64,000 nt of DNA. Source: Paracoccus salsus. GTDB lineage: Bacteria; Pseudomonadota; Alphaproteobacteria; Rhodobacterales; Rhodobacteraceae. The notes under the pieces were generated by a model that was not told where the DNA came from, ran no database searches, and saw only the letters and a program-made list of their open reading frames with translations. Position numbers and translations under genes: made by a program. The DNA is taken from NCBI RefSeq assembly GCF_021556615.1, contig NZ_JAKGGD010000006.1:186001-250000 (forward strand), written 5' to 3'. This document shows, piece after piece, positions 3,700 to 8,128 of this stretch (the first letter of the stretch is position 1; every line of letters begins with the position of its first letter).

Positions 3700-4166
3700 G
3701 CCTGGCCTCCGATGTGCTGGACGCGGCGCGCGATCGCGGTGTCCTGATCGCGACGGCGGAAAGCTGCACCGGCGGCCTGATCGCGGGCGCGCTGACGGAG
3801 GTGCCGGGTTCGTCCGATGTGGTCGATCGCGGCTTCGTCACCTACTCCAACGCCGCCAAGCAACAGATGCTGGACGTCCGGCCCCAGACGCTTGTGGCGC
3901 ATGGCGCGGTCAGCGAGCAGGTCGCGGCCGAGATGGCGTCCGGTGCATTGTCCCATTCCGACGCGACGATGACCGTTTCGGTGACCGGCATCGCCGGACC
4001 CGGCGGATCCGAGCACAAGCCCGAAGGCCGGGTCTGCTTCGCTGTCGCAAACGCCTTCGGCATCAGCACCGAGACGGTCGAGTTCGGACCACTCGGCCGC
4101 CATCGGGTCCGCGCGGCGAGCGTCGATCATGCGTTGCGCCTGTTGTTGCGGGCGCTGCGGAACTAG
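3696..4166 (+). CDS. pncC: CinA C-terminal-type nicotinamide-nucleotide amidohydrolase
   Basis: A stand-alone CinA C-terminal domain of about 156 residues. Members of this family deamidate NMN to nicotinate mononucleotide in pyridine nucleotide recycling. The motifs ATAESCTGGLIAG, VTYSNAAK and TGIAGPGG are all present. The frame can be extended upstream to an ATG at 3630, but that would run inside pgpA. The GTG at 3696, which overlaps the pgpA stop as GTGA and gives VSLASDVLDAAR, is the better start. The stop codon TAG is shared base for base with the stop of the convergent ltaE, because CTAG is palindromic. Confidence 0.92.
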   Translation: MSLASDVLDAARDRGVLIATAESCTGGLIAGALTEVPGSSDVVDRGFVTYSNAAKQQMLDVRPQTLVAHGAVSEQVAAEMASGALSHSDATMTVSVTGIAGPGGSEHKPEGRVCFAVANAFGISTETVEFGPLGRHRVRAASVDHALRLLLRALRN

Positions 4167-5218
4167 CTGCGCAGGCCGCCGTCGGCGAGGATCGCGACGA
4201 AGGCGTCGACATCCGCCTCGTCCGTGTCCCACGAGGTCACCAGCCGCAGCGGAACGGGATCCAGCCCCTCGGCCGATTTGTCGGGCCAGAGATGATAGAC
4301 CGCCCCGGCGGCCAGGGCGCGGGCATGCGCTTTCGCCGGAATGGTCGCGAACACCGCGTTGGACTGGACCGGGGCCAGCAACGTGCCGCCAGCCGCCTGC
4401 AAGGCCTTCGCCAGTCGCGCGGCCAGCGCATTCGCACGACCGGCCAGGCTCAGCCACAACCCGCCTTCCGCCAGTGCCAGCATCTGCGCGGCCAGATAAC
4501 GCTGCTTCGAGACCACGTGGCCGGTCTGCTTGCGACGATAATCGAAGCCCTCGGCCATGTCGGGATCGAAGAATACCACGGCCTCGGCGGCCATTGCGCC
4601 GTTCTTGGTGCCCCCCAGGCACAACACATCGACGCCGGCCCGCCATGTCAGATCCGCGGCGGAACACCCAAGTGCCGCAACGGCGTTGGCAAATCGCGCG
4701 CCGTCCATGTGCAACGGCAGACCGGCCGCGTGTGCAATCCGCGCCAGCGCGGCAACCTGGGCCGGGTCATGGATCGTGCCCCACTCGGTCGCATTGGTGA
4801 TCGACACCATCGCATTCCGTCCGCCGTTCAGGCCGCCGCCCGCGCCGATCCGCAGCGCCTCGGCCAGATCCTCGGGGTCCATTCTGCCCGCCGCGCCCGG
4901 CAGCGTCACCAGCTTGGCGCCATGCGAAAAGAATTCGGGCGCACCGCATTCGCTTGTCTCGATATGTGCGTCACGGTGGCAATAGATCCGCCCGCCCGGC
5001 GGACAAAGCTGGGCGCAGACCAGGGCATTCGCCGCCGTACCGGTCGAAACGAACCGCACGAAGGCCTGCGGCGCCTCCAGCAGATCGCGGATCGCCGCCT
5101 CGGCCCTGGCCGTGACCGGATCGGCACCATACCCCAGGACCGCCCCGCCATTGCAATCGTTCAGCGCGCGCAGCACGGCCGGATGTGCGCCAAAGGCGTT
5201 GTCGGACGCGAAATTCAC
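4163..5218 (-). CDS. ltaE: Low-specificity L-threonine aldolase family enzyme
   Basis: A 351-residue PLP-dependent fold-type I enzyme expected to split L-threonine or allo-threonine into glycine and acetaldehyde. The N-terminus MNFASDNAFGAHPAVL and the glycine-rich GYGADPVT stretch match the beta-eliminating-lyase/threonine aldolase family. The PLP lysine is probably the one in CLGGTKNGAMA. LHMDGARFANA contains the expected cofactor-contacting Asp and Arg. It is the last gene of a minus-strand run and overlaps the upstream YcgN-type gene by four bases. Exact substrate stereopreference cannot be read from the sequence. Confidence 0.93.
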   Translation of the reverse strand: MNFASDNAFGAHPAVLRALNDCNGGAVLGYGADPVTARAEAAIRDLLEAPQAFVRFVSTGTAANALVCAQLCPPGGRIYCHRDAHIETSECGAPEFFSHGAKLVTLPGAAGRMDPEDLAEALRIGAGGGLNGGRNAMVSITNATEWGTIHDPAQVAALARIAHAAGLPLHMDGARFANAVAALGCSAADLTWRAGVDVLCLGGTKNGAMAAEAVVFFDPDMAEGFDYRRKQTGHVVSKQRYLAAQMLALAEGGLWLSLAGRANALAARLAKALQAAGGTLLAPVQSNAVFATIPAKAHARALAAGAVYHLWPDKSAEGLDPVPLRLVTSWDTDEADVDAFVAILADGGLRS

Positions 5219-5655
5219 GACAGGTCCTCGATGATATGCTCTTCCCAGTCGTCCTCGGTCACCTCGGCCTCGCTTACGGTCCAGCCGCGCACACTGACAC
5301 CGGCGCGGTGCACGGTTTCCGCGTCGCCCGAGATCAGATGGTGCCAGTCATACAGCCGCCGCCCTTCGTGGCGCAGCCGGTAGGCGCAGGTCACGGGCAA
5401 CCACCAGGCGATGGCCTTCAGCTTTCCGGGGGTCAGGACGACGCAGTCGGGAACGTAATCGTGGCGGTTGCTGTAAGAACTGCACCGGCAGGCTTCGCCA
5501 TCCAGCAGCTTGCAGGCGACGCGTGTGAACGCCAGTTCGCCGGTATCCTCGTACTCGATCTTGTTCAGACAGCACTTGCCGCAGCCGTCGCACAGCGCCT
5601 CCCACTCTCCGGGCGTCAACTGATCCAGCGGCAATTCCCAGAACCGGTCACGCAT
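5215..5655 (-). CDS. YcgN/UPF0260-family cysteine-cluster protein
   Basis: This 146-residue protein belongs to the conserved UPF0260 (YcgN) family, whose biochemical role is not established. It shows the family's cysteine pattern: CDGCGKCC near residue 22, then ACKLL, ACRCSSYSNR and the later VPDC. Together these look like a zinc or Fe-S ligand set related to YkgJ-type CxxCxxxC proteins. There is no signal peptide or membrane segment, so it is probably cytosolic. It sits between ribF and ltaE: the stop touches the ltaE start (ATGA) and its first base coincides with the last base of ribF. Assignment to the family is secure; function is unknown. Confidence 0.88.
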   Translation of the reverse strand: MRDRFWELPLDQLTPGEWEALCDGCGKCCLNKIEYEDTGELAFTRVACKLLDGEACRCSSYSNRHDYVPDCVVLTPGKLKAIAWWLPVTCAYRLRHEGRRLYDWHHLISGDAETVHRAGVSVRGWTVSEAEVTEDDWEEHIIEDLS

Positions 5656-6584
5656 CAGGCGCCTGCCAGAACCGCACGGGCCTGTGCCGCGTCGGCGGCG
5701 ATCTGGTCGATCAGCCCGTCGATACTGTCAAAACTTGCCTCGTCCCGCAGGAACTCGACCAGTGCGACGGACAGATGCTGCCCATAGAGATCGCCTTCGA
5801 AATCGAACAGATGCACCTCGAGATTGGGGGCATTGCGTCCGAACATCGGCCGCACGCCAAGGCTGGCCACGCCCAGGCAGGACAGCCGGTCCGGGCCGGT
5901 CAGGACATCGACCAGCACGGCATAGACGCCCAGCCGCGGCAGGTGCAGCCCCTCCATCCGCATATTGGCCGTGGGCCAGCCGAAGTCGCGGCCGCGTTTC
6001 TCGCCATGCACCACCTCGCCCTCGATCCGGTGCCAGTGTCCCAGGATCTTTTCGGCATCGCGCGTGCGGCCCTCGGTCAGTGCGGTGCGGACGGCGGTAG
6101 AGCTGTAGTCCTGCCCCCCGGTGCCCACCAGCGGCACGGCGGTCACGCCAAATCCCAGCTGCGCGCCCAGTTCCGCAAGCGTCTTCGCGTTGCCCGCCCG
6201 TTTCGTGCCAAAGCAGAAATCCAGCCCGACGGTGACATGGCGCACGCCAAGGCCGTCCACCAGCACCTCGCGGGCGAAAGCCTGCGGAGTCAGGCCGGCA
6301 AGCACCGGGCCGAACGGCAACTCGTAGAGATGCTCGACACCAAGCCGCGCCATCCGGTTCGCACGCGCCTCGGCGTTCATCAGCCGGAACGGCTGTGTAT
6401 CGGGGACGAAATATTCGCGCGGATGGGGCTCGAAGGTGATGACACCCAGCGGCGCATCCGCCGCCCGGGAGGCCGCCTCGATGACCGCGCGATGGCCCAG
6501 ATGCAGGCCATCGAAATTGCCCATGGCGATGGTCGCGCCCCGTGCGTCGGAGGGCAATCCGCTCCAGTCTCGATGGATATGCAT
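5655..6584 (-). CDS. ribF: Bifunctional riboflavin kinase/FAD synthetase
   Basis: RibF phosphorylates riboflavin to FMN and then adenylates FMN to FAD. The chosen start at 6584 gives MHIHRDWSGLP and a 309-residue protein. A longer open frame to 6689 begins with an arginine/glycine-rich segment that has no family counterpart. The adenylyltransferase domain has GNFDGLHLGHRAV near residues 22-34 (HxGH motif). The C-terminal kinase domain carries GRDFGWPTANM and the GVYAVLVDV strand. It stands about 30 bases downstream of the phaJ-like gene and is probably transcribed with the following YcgN and threonine aldolase genes. Confidence 0.95.
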   Translation of the reverse strand: MHIHRDWSGLPSDARGATIAMGNFDGLHLGHRAVIEAASRAADAPLGVITFEPHPREYFVPDTQPFRLMNAEARANRMARLGVEHLYELPFGPVLAGLTPQAFAREVLVDGLGVRHVTVGLDFCFGTKRAGNAKTLAELGAQLGFGVTAVPLVGTGGQDYSSTAVRTALTEGRTRDAEKILGHWHRIEGEVVHGEKRGRDFGWPTANMRMEGLHLPRLGVYAVLVDVLTGPDRLSCLGVASLGVRPMFGRNAPNLEVHLFDFEGDLYGQHLSVALVEFLRDEASFDSIDGLIDQIAADAAQARAVLAGA

Positions 6585-6616
6585 TGCGCCCCCAATCGGG
6601 GCGCGACGAAGCCCCG

Positions 6617-7072
6617 TCAGTCGAACTTGCGGCTTGGGGCCAGCACGACCGCCTCGCCTTTCAGCACGACCGTATCGCCCACCAGACAACGGGTTGCAAG
6701 CGTCACCCGGCGTCTCCCGTGGTCGATCGAGTCGACCGTGACCTCGGCACGAACCACGTCGCCGGGTCGCACCGGAGCCATGAATTTCAATGTCTGGCCC
6801 AGATAGACGGTGCCATGTCCGGGCAACTGCTCACCGATCACGGCCGAGATCAGCCCGGCTGTCAGCATGCCGTGGGCAATCCGGCCCTCGAAGATGGTGT
6901 CGCGCGCGTAGTCGTCGTCCAGATGCACCGGATTGCGGTCGGTGGACACCTCCGAGAACAACGCGATATCGCGGTCGGTGACCTGCTTTTGCAGATAGCG
7001 CGTCATGCCGATCTCCAGGTCCTCGATGACGATCGTGCCGCGCGGAAGATTGTCGAACATGATTTCATCCAT
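6617..7072 (-). CDS. phaJ: PhaJ-like (R)-specific enoyl-CoA hydratase (MaoC family)
   Basis: A 151-residue single hot-dog MaoC protein. The hydratase dyad region is clear: DRNPVHLDDDYA supplies the Asp and His of the hydratase-2 motif, followed by FEGRIAHGMLTAGLIS and LPGHGTVYL. This pattern matches PhaJ enzymes, which hydrate trans-2-enoyl-CoA to (R)-3-hydroxyacyl-CoA and feed beta-oxidation intermediates into polyhydroxyalkanoate. An alternative start at Met5 is possible. A perfect CTGC-N3-GCAG palindrome, the known PhaR-type operator, lies 30-40 bases upstream and supports a PHA connection. A more general MaoC dehydratase role cannot be excluded. Confidence 0.85.
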   Translation of the reverse strand: MDEIMFDNLPRGTIVIEDLEIGMTRYLQKQVTDRDIALFSEVSTDRNPVHLDDDYARDTIFEGRIAHGMLTAGLISAVIGEQLPGHGTVYLGQTLKFMAPVRPGDVVRAEVTVDSIDHGRRRVTLATRCLVGDTVVLKGEAVVLAPSRKFD

Positions 7073-7100: not shown

Positions 7101-7115
7101 TGCTGCATAGCAGCA
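7101..7115. promoter_or_regulatory. Candidate PhaR operator upstream of the phaJ-like gene
   Basis: The 15 bases TGCTGCATAGCAGCA form a perfect 6-bp palindrome with a 3-bp centre and contain CTGC-N3-GCAG, the site reported for the polyhydroxyalkanoate repressor PhaR in Rhodobacter. It lies 29-43 bases before the start of a PhaJ-like gene, where a repressor could block transcription. The match is seen directly; the binding protein is inferred, and phaR is not in the window. Confidence 0.6.
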
Positions 7116-7127
7116 ATCTTGCGGGCG

Positions 7128-7174
7128 CGCAACAAAATACCACTTTACCTGCATTAAAGTATGCTTTTGTTGCG
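7128..7174. repeat. Nested inverted repeat between phaJ-like and HAD genes
   Basis: Two dyads share one centre near base 7151. The outer arms are CGCAACAAAA (7128-7137) and TTTTGTTGCG (7165-7174). The inner arms are ACTTTA (7142-7147) and TAAAGT (7155-7160). Both are perfect. The segment is AT-richer than its surroundings and lies 56-102 bases upstream of the phaJ-like start. It could be an operator for a dimeric or tetrameric regulator, or a hairpin. There is no T-run that would make it an obvious terminator for the HAD gene. Confidence 0.7.
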
Positions 7175-7258: not shown

Positions 7259-8128
7259 TCAGCGAAGCCGGCCGATGCTGAATTCCGGGCCGAGTTGGTG
7301 ATGGGCCAGCCATTCGCGCAGCAATTCCGGGTCCGGCTCTTCGACATCGGTCCCAAAGGCTTGGGCCGCCAGGCCGCCTGTGACGAACACCGAGTCGATG
7401 CCCTCCTGACGGGCACCGCGAATATCGGTGTTGATGCCGTCGCCGATGGCCAGCACGCGGGACTTGTCGCTCAGCCCCAGCAGCCGTCGGGCGCGCTCGT
7501 AGATCGGCGGATGCGGTTTCCCGAAATAATAGGATACGCCGCCCAGATCCTCATAGAATTCGGCCAGGGCGCCGGCGCAATAAATCCGGGTCTCGCCCAG
7601 ATCCACCACCACGTCGGGATTGGCGCAAAGCAGCTTCAGGCCGCGCTGTTGCGCCAGCATGAACGGCGCGCGGTAATCCTCGGGGGCCTCGTTTATCTCG
7701 TCGAAGGGACCGGTCACGACGATCCCCTCGGCCTCTTCCAGAGCGACGCGACGGATCGGCGCCGCGCCGGTCCATTCGGGCGGGGTGTCGGTGAAGAACC
7801 CGTCATCCTTCTCGGTGCCGACATGCCAGACCTTGCGGCCGACGGCCCCGCCGAACATGGCATCCTGTGCGGCGTCGCCGGAACTGATCACCATGTCCCA
7901 GGCATCCCGCGGCACACCCATGCGATCCAGCTGCGCGATCACATACTGGTTTGGGCGCGGCGCATTCGTCAGCAGAACCACCCGACCGCCGCCGCTGCGA
8001 TAAGCCTGCAGGGCGCTGATTGCGGCCTCGTAGGGCCGCTTGCCATTATGCAGGCAGCCCCAGAGATCGCACAACAGCGCGTCGTAGTTCGCACCGATCT
8101 GCGACAGGTGCCGGATGATGCGCGTCAT
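7259..8128 (-). CDS. HAD-superfamily IIA hydrolase (TIGR01459-like)
   Basis: A 289-residue HAD phosphatase of subclass IIA. The catalytic nucleophile motif is LLCDLWGCLHNG, in which D-x-W-G replaces the more common DxDGT as in this subfamily. VVLLTNAPRP is motif II, GKPHPPIYERA carries the motif III lysine and AIGDGINTDIRGA is motif IV. The physiological substrate is unknown; relatives act on small sugar or nucleotide phosphates. Its ATG overlaps the ppaC stop (TGATG), so it is coupled to the pyrophosphatase gene upstream. It is cytosolic, with no signal peptide. Confidence 0.88.
   Translation of the reverse strand: MTRIIRHLSQIGANYDALLCDLWGCLHNGKRPYEAAISALQAYRSGGGRVVLLTNAPRPNQYVIAQLDRMGVPRDAWDMVISSGDAAQDAMFGGAVGRKVWHVGTEKDDGFFTDTPPEWTGAAPIRRVALEEAEGIVVTGPFDEINEAPEDYRAPFMLAQQRGLKLLCANPDVVVDLGETRIYCAGALAEFYEDLGGVSYYFGKPHPPIYERARRLLGLSDKSRVLAIGDGINTDIRGARQEGIDSVFVTGGLAAQAFGTDVEEPDPELLREWLAHHQLGPEFSIGRLR

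Follow-up and report, generated by a model that had tools for sequence, protein, structure and literature searches.

Gene organisation at the maoC locus

The window, i.e. the whole stretch of DNA that was analysed (64 kb, Paracoccus salsus), harbours a maoC/phaJ-like gene with a short palindrome in front of its start codon. The features of this locus are as follows.

4163–5218, minus strand: beta-eliminating lyase family gene (PF01212), possible end of the operon
5215–5655, minus strand: gene for a CxxCxxCC-domain protein (Pfam PF03692), overlapping the end of ribF
5655–6587, minus strand: ribF (riboflavin kinase/FAD synthetase), 29 bp downstream of maoC
6617–7072, minus strand: maoC/phaJ-like gene, 151 aa, (R)-specific enoyl-CoA hydratase family, ATG at 7072
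7101–7115, minus strand: putative PhaR operator, TGCTGC-TAT-GCAGCA when read as minus strand, centred on the −10 element (assigned from sequence and conserved arms)
7104–7109, minus strand: likely −10 element, TATGCA, 17 bp from a TTGC −35 in aligned orthologues
7127–7132, minus strand: likely −35 element, TTGCGC, 17-bp spacer
7128–7174, no strand assigned: inverted repeat CGCAACAAAA...TTTTGTTGCG, upstream of and overlapping the −35
7259–8128, minus strand: upstream gene for a TIGR01459 HAD-type hydrolase, on the same strand as maoC

Since ribF adjoins maoC in all 80 named loci of our comparison and the gap between both genes is only 29 bp in the window, maoC and ribF probably form one operon (phaJ-ribF). 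The gene for the CxxCxxCC-domain protein, presumably YcgN-like, is present in 78 of the 80 named loci, and the product of the PF01212 gene is one that we take to be threonine aldolase-like. The 14 best-scoring named maoC loci are all from Paracoccus, and the window falls inside the Paracoccus clade of the tree.

The maoC product consists of a single MaoC/hotdog domain (Pfam PF01575, E 5.3e-24, residues 28–127 of 151). Its best relatives among 34 matched sequences of solved structures are 5cpg (E 2.3e-31) and 1iq6 (E 3.6e-28), which are both (R)-specific enoyl-CoA hydratases; we take 5cpg to be PhaJ1 of Pseudomonas aeruginosa, and 1iq6 is presumably PhaJ from Aeromonas caviae. Like these two proteins, which align over 135 and 130 residues, respectively, the maoC product keeps the Asp and the His residue in a single-domain context. 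The catalytic residues of PhaJAc are Asp31 and His36 according to the available part of PMC4823750. D45 and H50 of the maoC product align with D32 and H37 in the chain numbering of 1iq6, which we equate with Asp31 and His36 at a numbering offset of one. This pair, five residues apart, does not vary among the five sequences aligned, which were those of the window, of three further orthologues and of one genome lacking PhaR. A search of NCBIfam with the maoC product yielded no model at its cut-off; the best match, below cut-off, was the hydratase half of a hydratase/phosphate acetyltransferase fusion. The domain match, the closest solved relatives and the kept Asp/His pair agree with the first-pass annotation, made from the letters of the window alone, which had spoken of a MaoC protein with PhaJ signatures. 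By its family the protein is probably a handler of the PHB building block.

The palindrome upstream of maoC

The same annotation had reported a palindrome containing CTGC-N3-GCAG in front of the gene. We confirmed it at 7101–7115 (TGCTGCATAGCAGCA), where the plus strand reads TGCTGC-ATA-GCAGCA. Its placement before maoC was borne out as well; the distance to the start (ATG at 7072, minus strand) is 28 bp and not 30 bp. Missing from that annotation was the location of the palindrome on a likely −10 element: the site is centred on a conserved −10 of a predicted promoter and thus overlaps a promoter element.

The 15-base palindrome occurs as a single copy in the 64-kb window versus 0.01 copies expected from shuffles, and CTGCTATGCAG is likewise present only once in the whole genome. 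The inner CTGC-N3-GCAG is found four times in the window (2.17 expected; at least four copies in 21 of 100 shuffles) and 125 times in the genome, versus 95 times for the reversed control pattern. The genome-wide count of this motif was rejected as evidence, being at chance level in the window and in the genome. As the 11-base motif is near chance, the evidence comes from the comparison of orthologues.

The half-sites CTGC and GCAG with their 3-base gap are those of R. sphaeroides PhaR operators, whose sequence is given as CTGCNNNGCAG in the accessible text of PMC12542648 and in which N3 is free, and the designation of the palindrome as a PhaR-type motif is upheld to this extent. In rhizobia, the consensus of B. 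diazoefficiens PhaR, TGCRNYGCASMA, includes RNY in its centre (PMC6201568, available part), as does the motif of S. meliloti PhaR/AniA, which has AT-rich arms (PMC12542648), whereas the three central bases are unrestricted in a consensus published later for B. diazoefficiens (PMC10888616, as far as accessible). Unlike the S. meliloti and B. diazoefficiens motifs with RNY, the window site has ATA/TAT in its centre, and the AT-rich arms of S. meliloti are a further difference.

phaR and pha genes in the same genome

The genome encodes one PhaR (TIGR01848, E 6.2e-47, above cut-off; PF07879, PHB_acc_N, E 1.7e-26). Near phaR lie phaZ (PHB_depo_C, E 1.3e-89) and phaC (PhaC_N, E 1.1e-69); phaZ and phaC are divergent and are followed by a probable phaP and by phaR. 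The gene between phaC and phaR is called phaP, as probable, on the basis of its position and of a match to Phasin_2 below cut-off (E 0.0011, 19.6 bits against a cut-off of 24.9). It had no match in the NCBIfam search and no relative among solved structures, where one match appeared at E 0.56. Furthermore, the genome contains ccr (TIGR01751, E 8.3e-188), which encodes crotonyl-CoA carboxylase/reductase and thus the following step of the ethylmalonyl-CoA pathway. The maoC gene is located outside the pha cluster.

PhaR-type sites were found at these genes. TGCCGC-GAT-GCAGCA is located about 80 bp before the probable phaP (locus L017, with sites at 7684–7698 and 5249–5263 at phaP/phaZ) and sits in the 17 bp that separate TTGAAA from TATATT; a second site is located 28 bp away from it. 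TGCTGC-GTC-GCGGCA lies between the divergent starts of phaZ and phaC. The genome search for phaR, phaC and phaP with the same site, as suggested in the first-pass annotation, thus retrieved all three genes, phaP as a probable one, with sites at phaP and at phaZ/phaC; promoters of phaC and phaP devoid of the motif, which the annotation had named as an argument against its proposal, were not what we observed. Unlike the PhaR sites of the pha cluster, the window site belongs to the phaJ-ribF operon elsewhere in the genome, is placed on the −10 and has the centre TAT. It is a single copy, whereas phaP-side sites of Paracoccus often come in pairs 28–29 bp apart.

Some further sites of this genome were noted. 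TGCGGC-GGC-GCAGCA (L023, 1501–1515) is intergenic, with an acetyl-CoA synthetase-like gene starting about 160 bp further on, and TGCTGC-GTT-GCGGCA (L032, 1501–1515) precedes an mdoG-family glucan gene by about 40 bp; both genes are possible PhaR targets. Two loci (L020 and L021, 1501–1515) carry the identical TGCTGC-GGT-GCAGCA and both stop 123 bases later, which probably reflects contig ends in an assembly-breaking repeat.

PhaR-type sites in orthologous upstream regions

For comparison, 198 upstream regions were compiled from the window, the 80 named loci and 117 loci from other genomes, one of these being the window's own genome; 110 upstream regions were taken from 351 matching genomes as the 30 best loci and 80 chosen among the matches listed. 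After leaving out L213, which has a short upstream region, from the counts, 197 of the 198 regions were long enough, and 188 were distinct. A site was scored as YGC-N3-GCR with matching arms. Such a site is present in 134 of the 188 distinct orthologous regions, as compared to a mean of 4.52 and a maximum of 9 in 50 dinucleotide shuffles. Of 742 control windows taken from the named loci, 24 contain one.

At the level of genera we used 108 genomes, one per genus, which were drawn from the best matches and not at random, with L185 (the window's own genome) left out; the related loci in this set are not independent. A strict site was detected in 65 of the 108 genera, with 74 sites altogether, and 43 genera lack it. 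Although RNY was not part of the filter, 68 of these 74 sites have it as their centre. As background we took what this filter matched in other parts of the named loci (77 of 80, with L100, L103 and L124 left out), where 33 of 140 matches are RNY (Fisher p 2.5e-23 for non-independent loci). The core YGC-RNY-GCR of S. meliloti PhaR/AniA and B. diazoefficiens PhaR is accordingly shared by most of the orthologous sites. From the excess of sites over shuffles and the enrichment of RNY we conclude that this promoter carries predicted PhaR boxes wherever a genus has a site. Of the 65 loci, 36 have the operator across the end of the −10, 19 have it in the spacer after the −35 and 8 have it in both positions; one locus has it at another place, and one has a site overlapping the −10 plus one elsewhere.

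A chance palindrome without function in a GC-rich genome would be in line with the 125 versus 95 genomic copies of the inner motif. Against it stand the expectation of 0.01 per window for all 15 bases, the same position of the site in 45 of 58 loci of the Paracoccus clade, and the 134 of 188 upstream regions versus 4.5 after shuffling. Chance was rejected on this conservation across upstream regions and appears hardly credible to us.

Other sequences recur in these promoters. CTGC-N4-GCA was seen in 22 of the 43 regions without a strict site, in 1 of the 65 with one and in 18 of 598 control windows; the corresponding numbers for TGCRAAGTAAT are 17 of 43, 0 of 65 and 0 of 607. A sequence resembling TTTCTGC-N4-GCAAAGTAATNAAATT is located in the last 115 bp before maoC in L222, L225, L246, L280 and others without a strict site.

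Promoter geometry and the arrangement in Paracoccus

Aligned maoC promoters share a TTGCGC-like −35, a 17-bp spacer and TATGC(A/T) as −10, which reads TATGCT in many other genera. A scan for E. coli-type consensus promoters at this site returned no promoter. We distinguish promoters with the operator centred on the −10 (type A) from those with the operator 8 bp downstream (type B). The Paracoccus clade, with 58 rows including the window, comprises 45 type A promoters (the window among them), 10 type B promoters and 3 that are neither. These types were set by regular expressions fixing the inner half-sites, the TA of the −10 and the class of the centre, with 5 of 81 rows fitting no type, and the invariance of the corresponding columns therefore holds by construction. 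The −35 TTG, which was not used in defining type A, is present in 45 of 45 type A promoters.

For a recount, the −10 was called from the −35 and the TA alone, and a site filter blind to the centre was applied. By this filter the 58 loci divide into 45 TA-centred, 8 with RNY and 5 without a site. In the 48 promoters of the clade that are not type B, with the −10 called independently of the arms, the bases before the −10 are T (34), G (44), C (48), T (47), G (47) and C (48), and those after the first three bases of the −10 are G (47), C (48), A (44), G (45), C (41), A (45) and T (38).

Extended −10 promoters have TG one base before the −10. The TGC to the left of the −10 could be such an element, and this counts against a PhaR operator. 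Control by PhaR would then have been lost in Paracoccus, and conservation would reflect a strong extended −10 (TGC-TATGCA) together with constrained bases following it; the TG is indeed placed as in an extended −10, and the centre fits a −10 and not RNY. This account leaves aside that the outer arm bases are kept as well (−5 G in 44, −4 C in 48, +6 G in 45, +7 C in 41 and +8 A in 45 of the 48 promoters) and that the conserved bases form the very arms, TGCTGC...GCAGCA, which the window shares with sites upstream of phaR in Paracoccus. Moreover, in 29 type B promoters the −3 base, the T of an extended −10, carries less than 0.45 bits, yet the operator is present. We therefore regard a mere promoter as improbable.

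The sites upstream of phaR differ from the window site in their centre. Within 1500 bp upstream of the part encoding the DNA-binding portion of PhaR, 27 of 29 sites in 15 genomes with a type A promoter are RNY and none of the 29 is TA-centred; at least one RNY site was found in 14 of the 15 genomes. By analogy with the window's genome these sites would lie before phaP, whether in coding or non-coding sequence. The departure of the window's TAT/ATA from RNY and the lack of TA-centred sites upstream of phaR in type A genomes count against a PhaR operator. An altered DNA-binding part of PhaR was considered as the cause and rejected: its start, KRYASRRLYNT, is identical in 27 of 27 loci, and other differences follow the clades as judged by eye.

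We read the Paracoccus arrangement as a putative PhaR operator that has taken the −10 into its 3-base gap. At about even odds we hold the wider proposal that the PhaR operator of phaJ-ribF was shifted by 8 bp in Paracoccus, so that half-sites and promoter interleave and the RNY centre is lost while the sites upstream of phaR keep it, and that the promoter may in addition carry the inverted repeat of a second regulator. With the same reservation, operators downstream of the −10, in the spacer, in both places and on the −10 amount to a natural experiment in the movement of an operator at a fixed promoter.

An 8-bp deletion between ATGC repeats would convert the type B sequence of L115 to type A. 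As a proven event this deletion was rejected, since the tree also allows the reverse, a duplication back. Types A and B need two changes on the tree, and 10 type B loci of Paracoccus group with 8 type A loci (quick tree with SH-aLRT support only). In the type B loci L110, L115 and L103, longer nested palindromes, e.g. CTCTGCTATGCTGCAATGCAGCAGAG, span the −10 and the downstream operator; they are possible intermediates between the two operator positions.

Inverted repeat and further conserved boxes

The pair CGCAACAAAA...TTTTGTTGCG occurs only once in the genome, and both arms are recognisable in 28 of 45 type A promoters. This inverted repeat is possibly the site of a second regulator. RamB was considered as its owner and rejected, as the P. 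denitrificans RamB oligonucleotide (Table 3 in the accessible part of PMC10370305) has no such boxes by eye. A different box, GYAAYWW(W)RTTRC, is present in 64 of 108 genus-level maoC upstream regions (seen in regions L186–L294) and in 0 of 616 control windows. It was looked for in the window and in the 45 type A loci and is absent from all of them; its kinship with the inverted repeat of the window is judged from sequence resemblance only.

Co-occurrence of maoC and PhaR

PhaR was detected in 379 of 394 genomes of the family and in 121 of 125 genomes of the genus. The near-complete set consists of 347 family genomes (at least 90% complete, at most 5% contaminated), with maoC scored at E ≤ 1e-30. 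In this set maoC is present in 316 of 339 genomes with PhaR versus 2 of 8 without PhaR (Fisher 5e-6), and 6 of the 8 genomes without PhaR thus lack maoC. The two that kept it (G003, G379) also kept the gene order, but the distance between maoC and the upstream gene is just 8 and 6 nt, which indicates that the maoC promoter is gone. These PhaR-less genomes may have lost the whole PHB pathway, which would confound the correlation.

No PhaR match was obtained in four incomplete genomes of the family that contain maoC (78–85% identity); a site is present in one of them (L126). Of four Paracoccus assemblies likewise lacking a PhaR match, two contain maoC, one with a type A site (L298). PhaR-less assemblies that keep maoC, in L126 and L298 even together with the site, count against a PhaR operator; PhaR may be missing from these incomplete and Paracoccus assemblies.

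Another regulator that recognises a TGC palindrome might bind in place of PhaR. Further conserved elements of these promoters suggest the action of additional regulators, and 43 of 108 genera have no strict site even though PhaR is nearly universal in the family, an observation that also counts directly against a PhaR operator. Nevertheless, the sites of the orthologues agree with published PhaR motifs, RNY centre included, the same genomes carry sites with identical arms upstream of phaR, and near-complete genomes devoid of PhaR lack either maoC (6 of 8) or its promoter (2 of 8). We consider a regulator other than PhaR very improbable.

It is rather unlikely, in our view, that PhaR binds as proposed and that the enzyme serves mainly outside PHB and the ethylmalonyl-CoA pathway, e.g. 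in general acyl-CoA metabolism; with respect to the operator this possibility overlaps with the reading we prefer. It would agree with the place of maoC outside the pha cluster and beside ribF in 80 of 80 named loci, and with the fusion-type hydratase as best NCBIfam match below cut-off. The closest solved relatives are PhaJ proteins, ccr is present, and maoC is mostly absent where PhaR is absent; all of this argues against such a role. According to the available part of PMC4823750, PhaJ1Pa and PhaJAc handle C4–C6 substrates, and PhaJAc is clustered with phaP and phaC, whereas maoC of the window is found beside ribF.

Discussion

We propose that the palindrome serves as PhaR operator at the promoter of an operon, phaJ-ribF, that encodes a PhaJ-type enzyme, and assign to this reading a probability of roughly 0.78. 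The first-pass annotation had argued that operator and enzyme family both point to PHA metabolism; both lines hold, with binding of PhaR as a putative step. At the level of sequence, the proposal builds on the site and its conservation, the promoter-like geometry, the enzyme family, the presence of phaR, phaC, phaZ, ccr and a probable phaP, and the loss of maoC together with PhaR. Further points that count against it are the near-chance frequency of the 11-mer, the lack of an NCBIfam model at cut-off for the enzyme and the empty E. coli-type promoter scan.

In other species, PhaR is a repressor that leaves the DNA for PHB (PMC6201568 and PMC12542648, available parts). In cells with little PHB, PhaR would bind TGCTGC-N3-GCAGCA over the −10 and thereby block RNA polymerase. 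Once PHB granules form, PhaR would be drawn onto them, as is known for PhaR elsewhere, and the operon would be expressed. The enzyme would interconvert (R)-3-hydroxybutyryl-CoA, the PHB monomer, and crotonyl-CoA, and the hydratase step would thereby link stored carbon to the ethylmalonyl-CoA pathway and to beta-oxidation. In 45 of 58 loci of the Paracoccus clade the putative operator is placed on the −10, the TA of which is enclosed in the 3-base gap; its position in the other genera that have a site is mostly 8 bp downstream and/or in the −35/−10 spacer.

A role of an (R)-specific enoyl-CoA hydratase (R-ECH) in PHA mobilization has been demonstrated for PhaJ1 of Haloferax mediterranei; this archaeal enzyme is also an R-ECH able to link PHA breakdown to enoyl-CoA metabolism. 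In the accessible literature, regulon databases and subscription papers aside, we found no report of a PhaR site at phaJ/maoC of Rhodobacteraceae, and a prediction of this kind may exist. MaoC and PhaJ are not mentioned in PMC12542648, PMC10888616 and PMC6201568, and the available text of a paper on the R. sphaeroides network (PMC4344238) contains no mention of PHB, MaoC or phasin.

PhaR itself is a well-known regulator; new would be an additional target and an odd operator geometry. If the proposal is true, the Paracoccus form would illustrate how a repressor site can move by 8 bp around a fixed promoter, and its TAT centre would offer a direct test of whether PhaR reads the three central bases. 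The step between the PHB monomer and crotonyl-CoA would be under the control of a PHB-granule sensor in many genera of a large family, and a gene of FAD synthesis would probably be under the same sensor. Stored carbon would then signal to the entry of the ethylmalonyl-CoA pathway.
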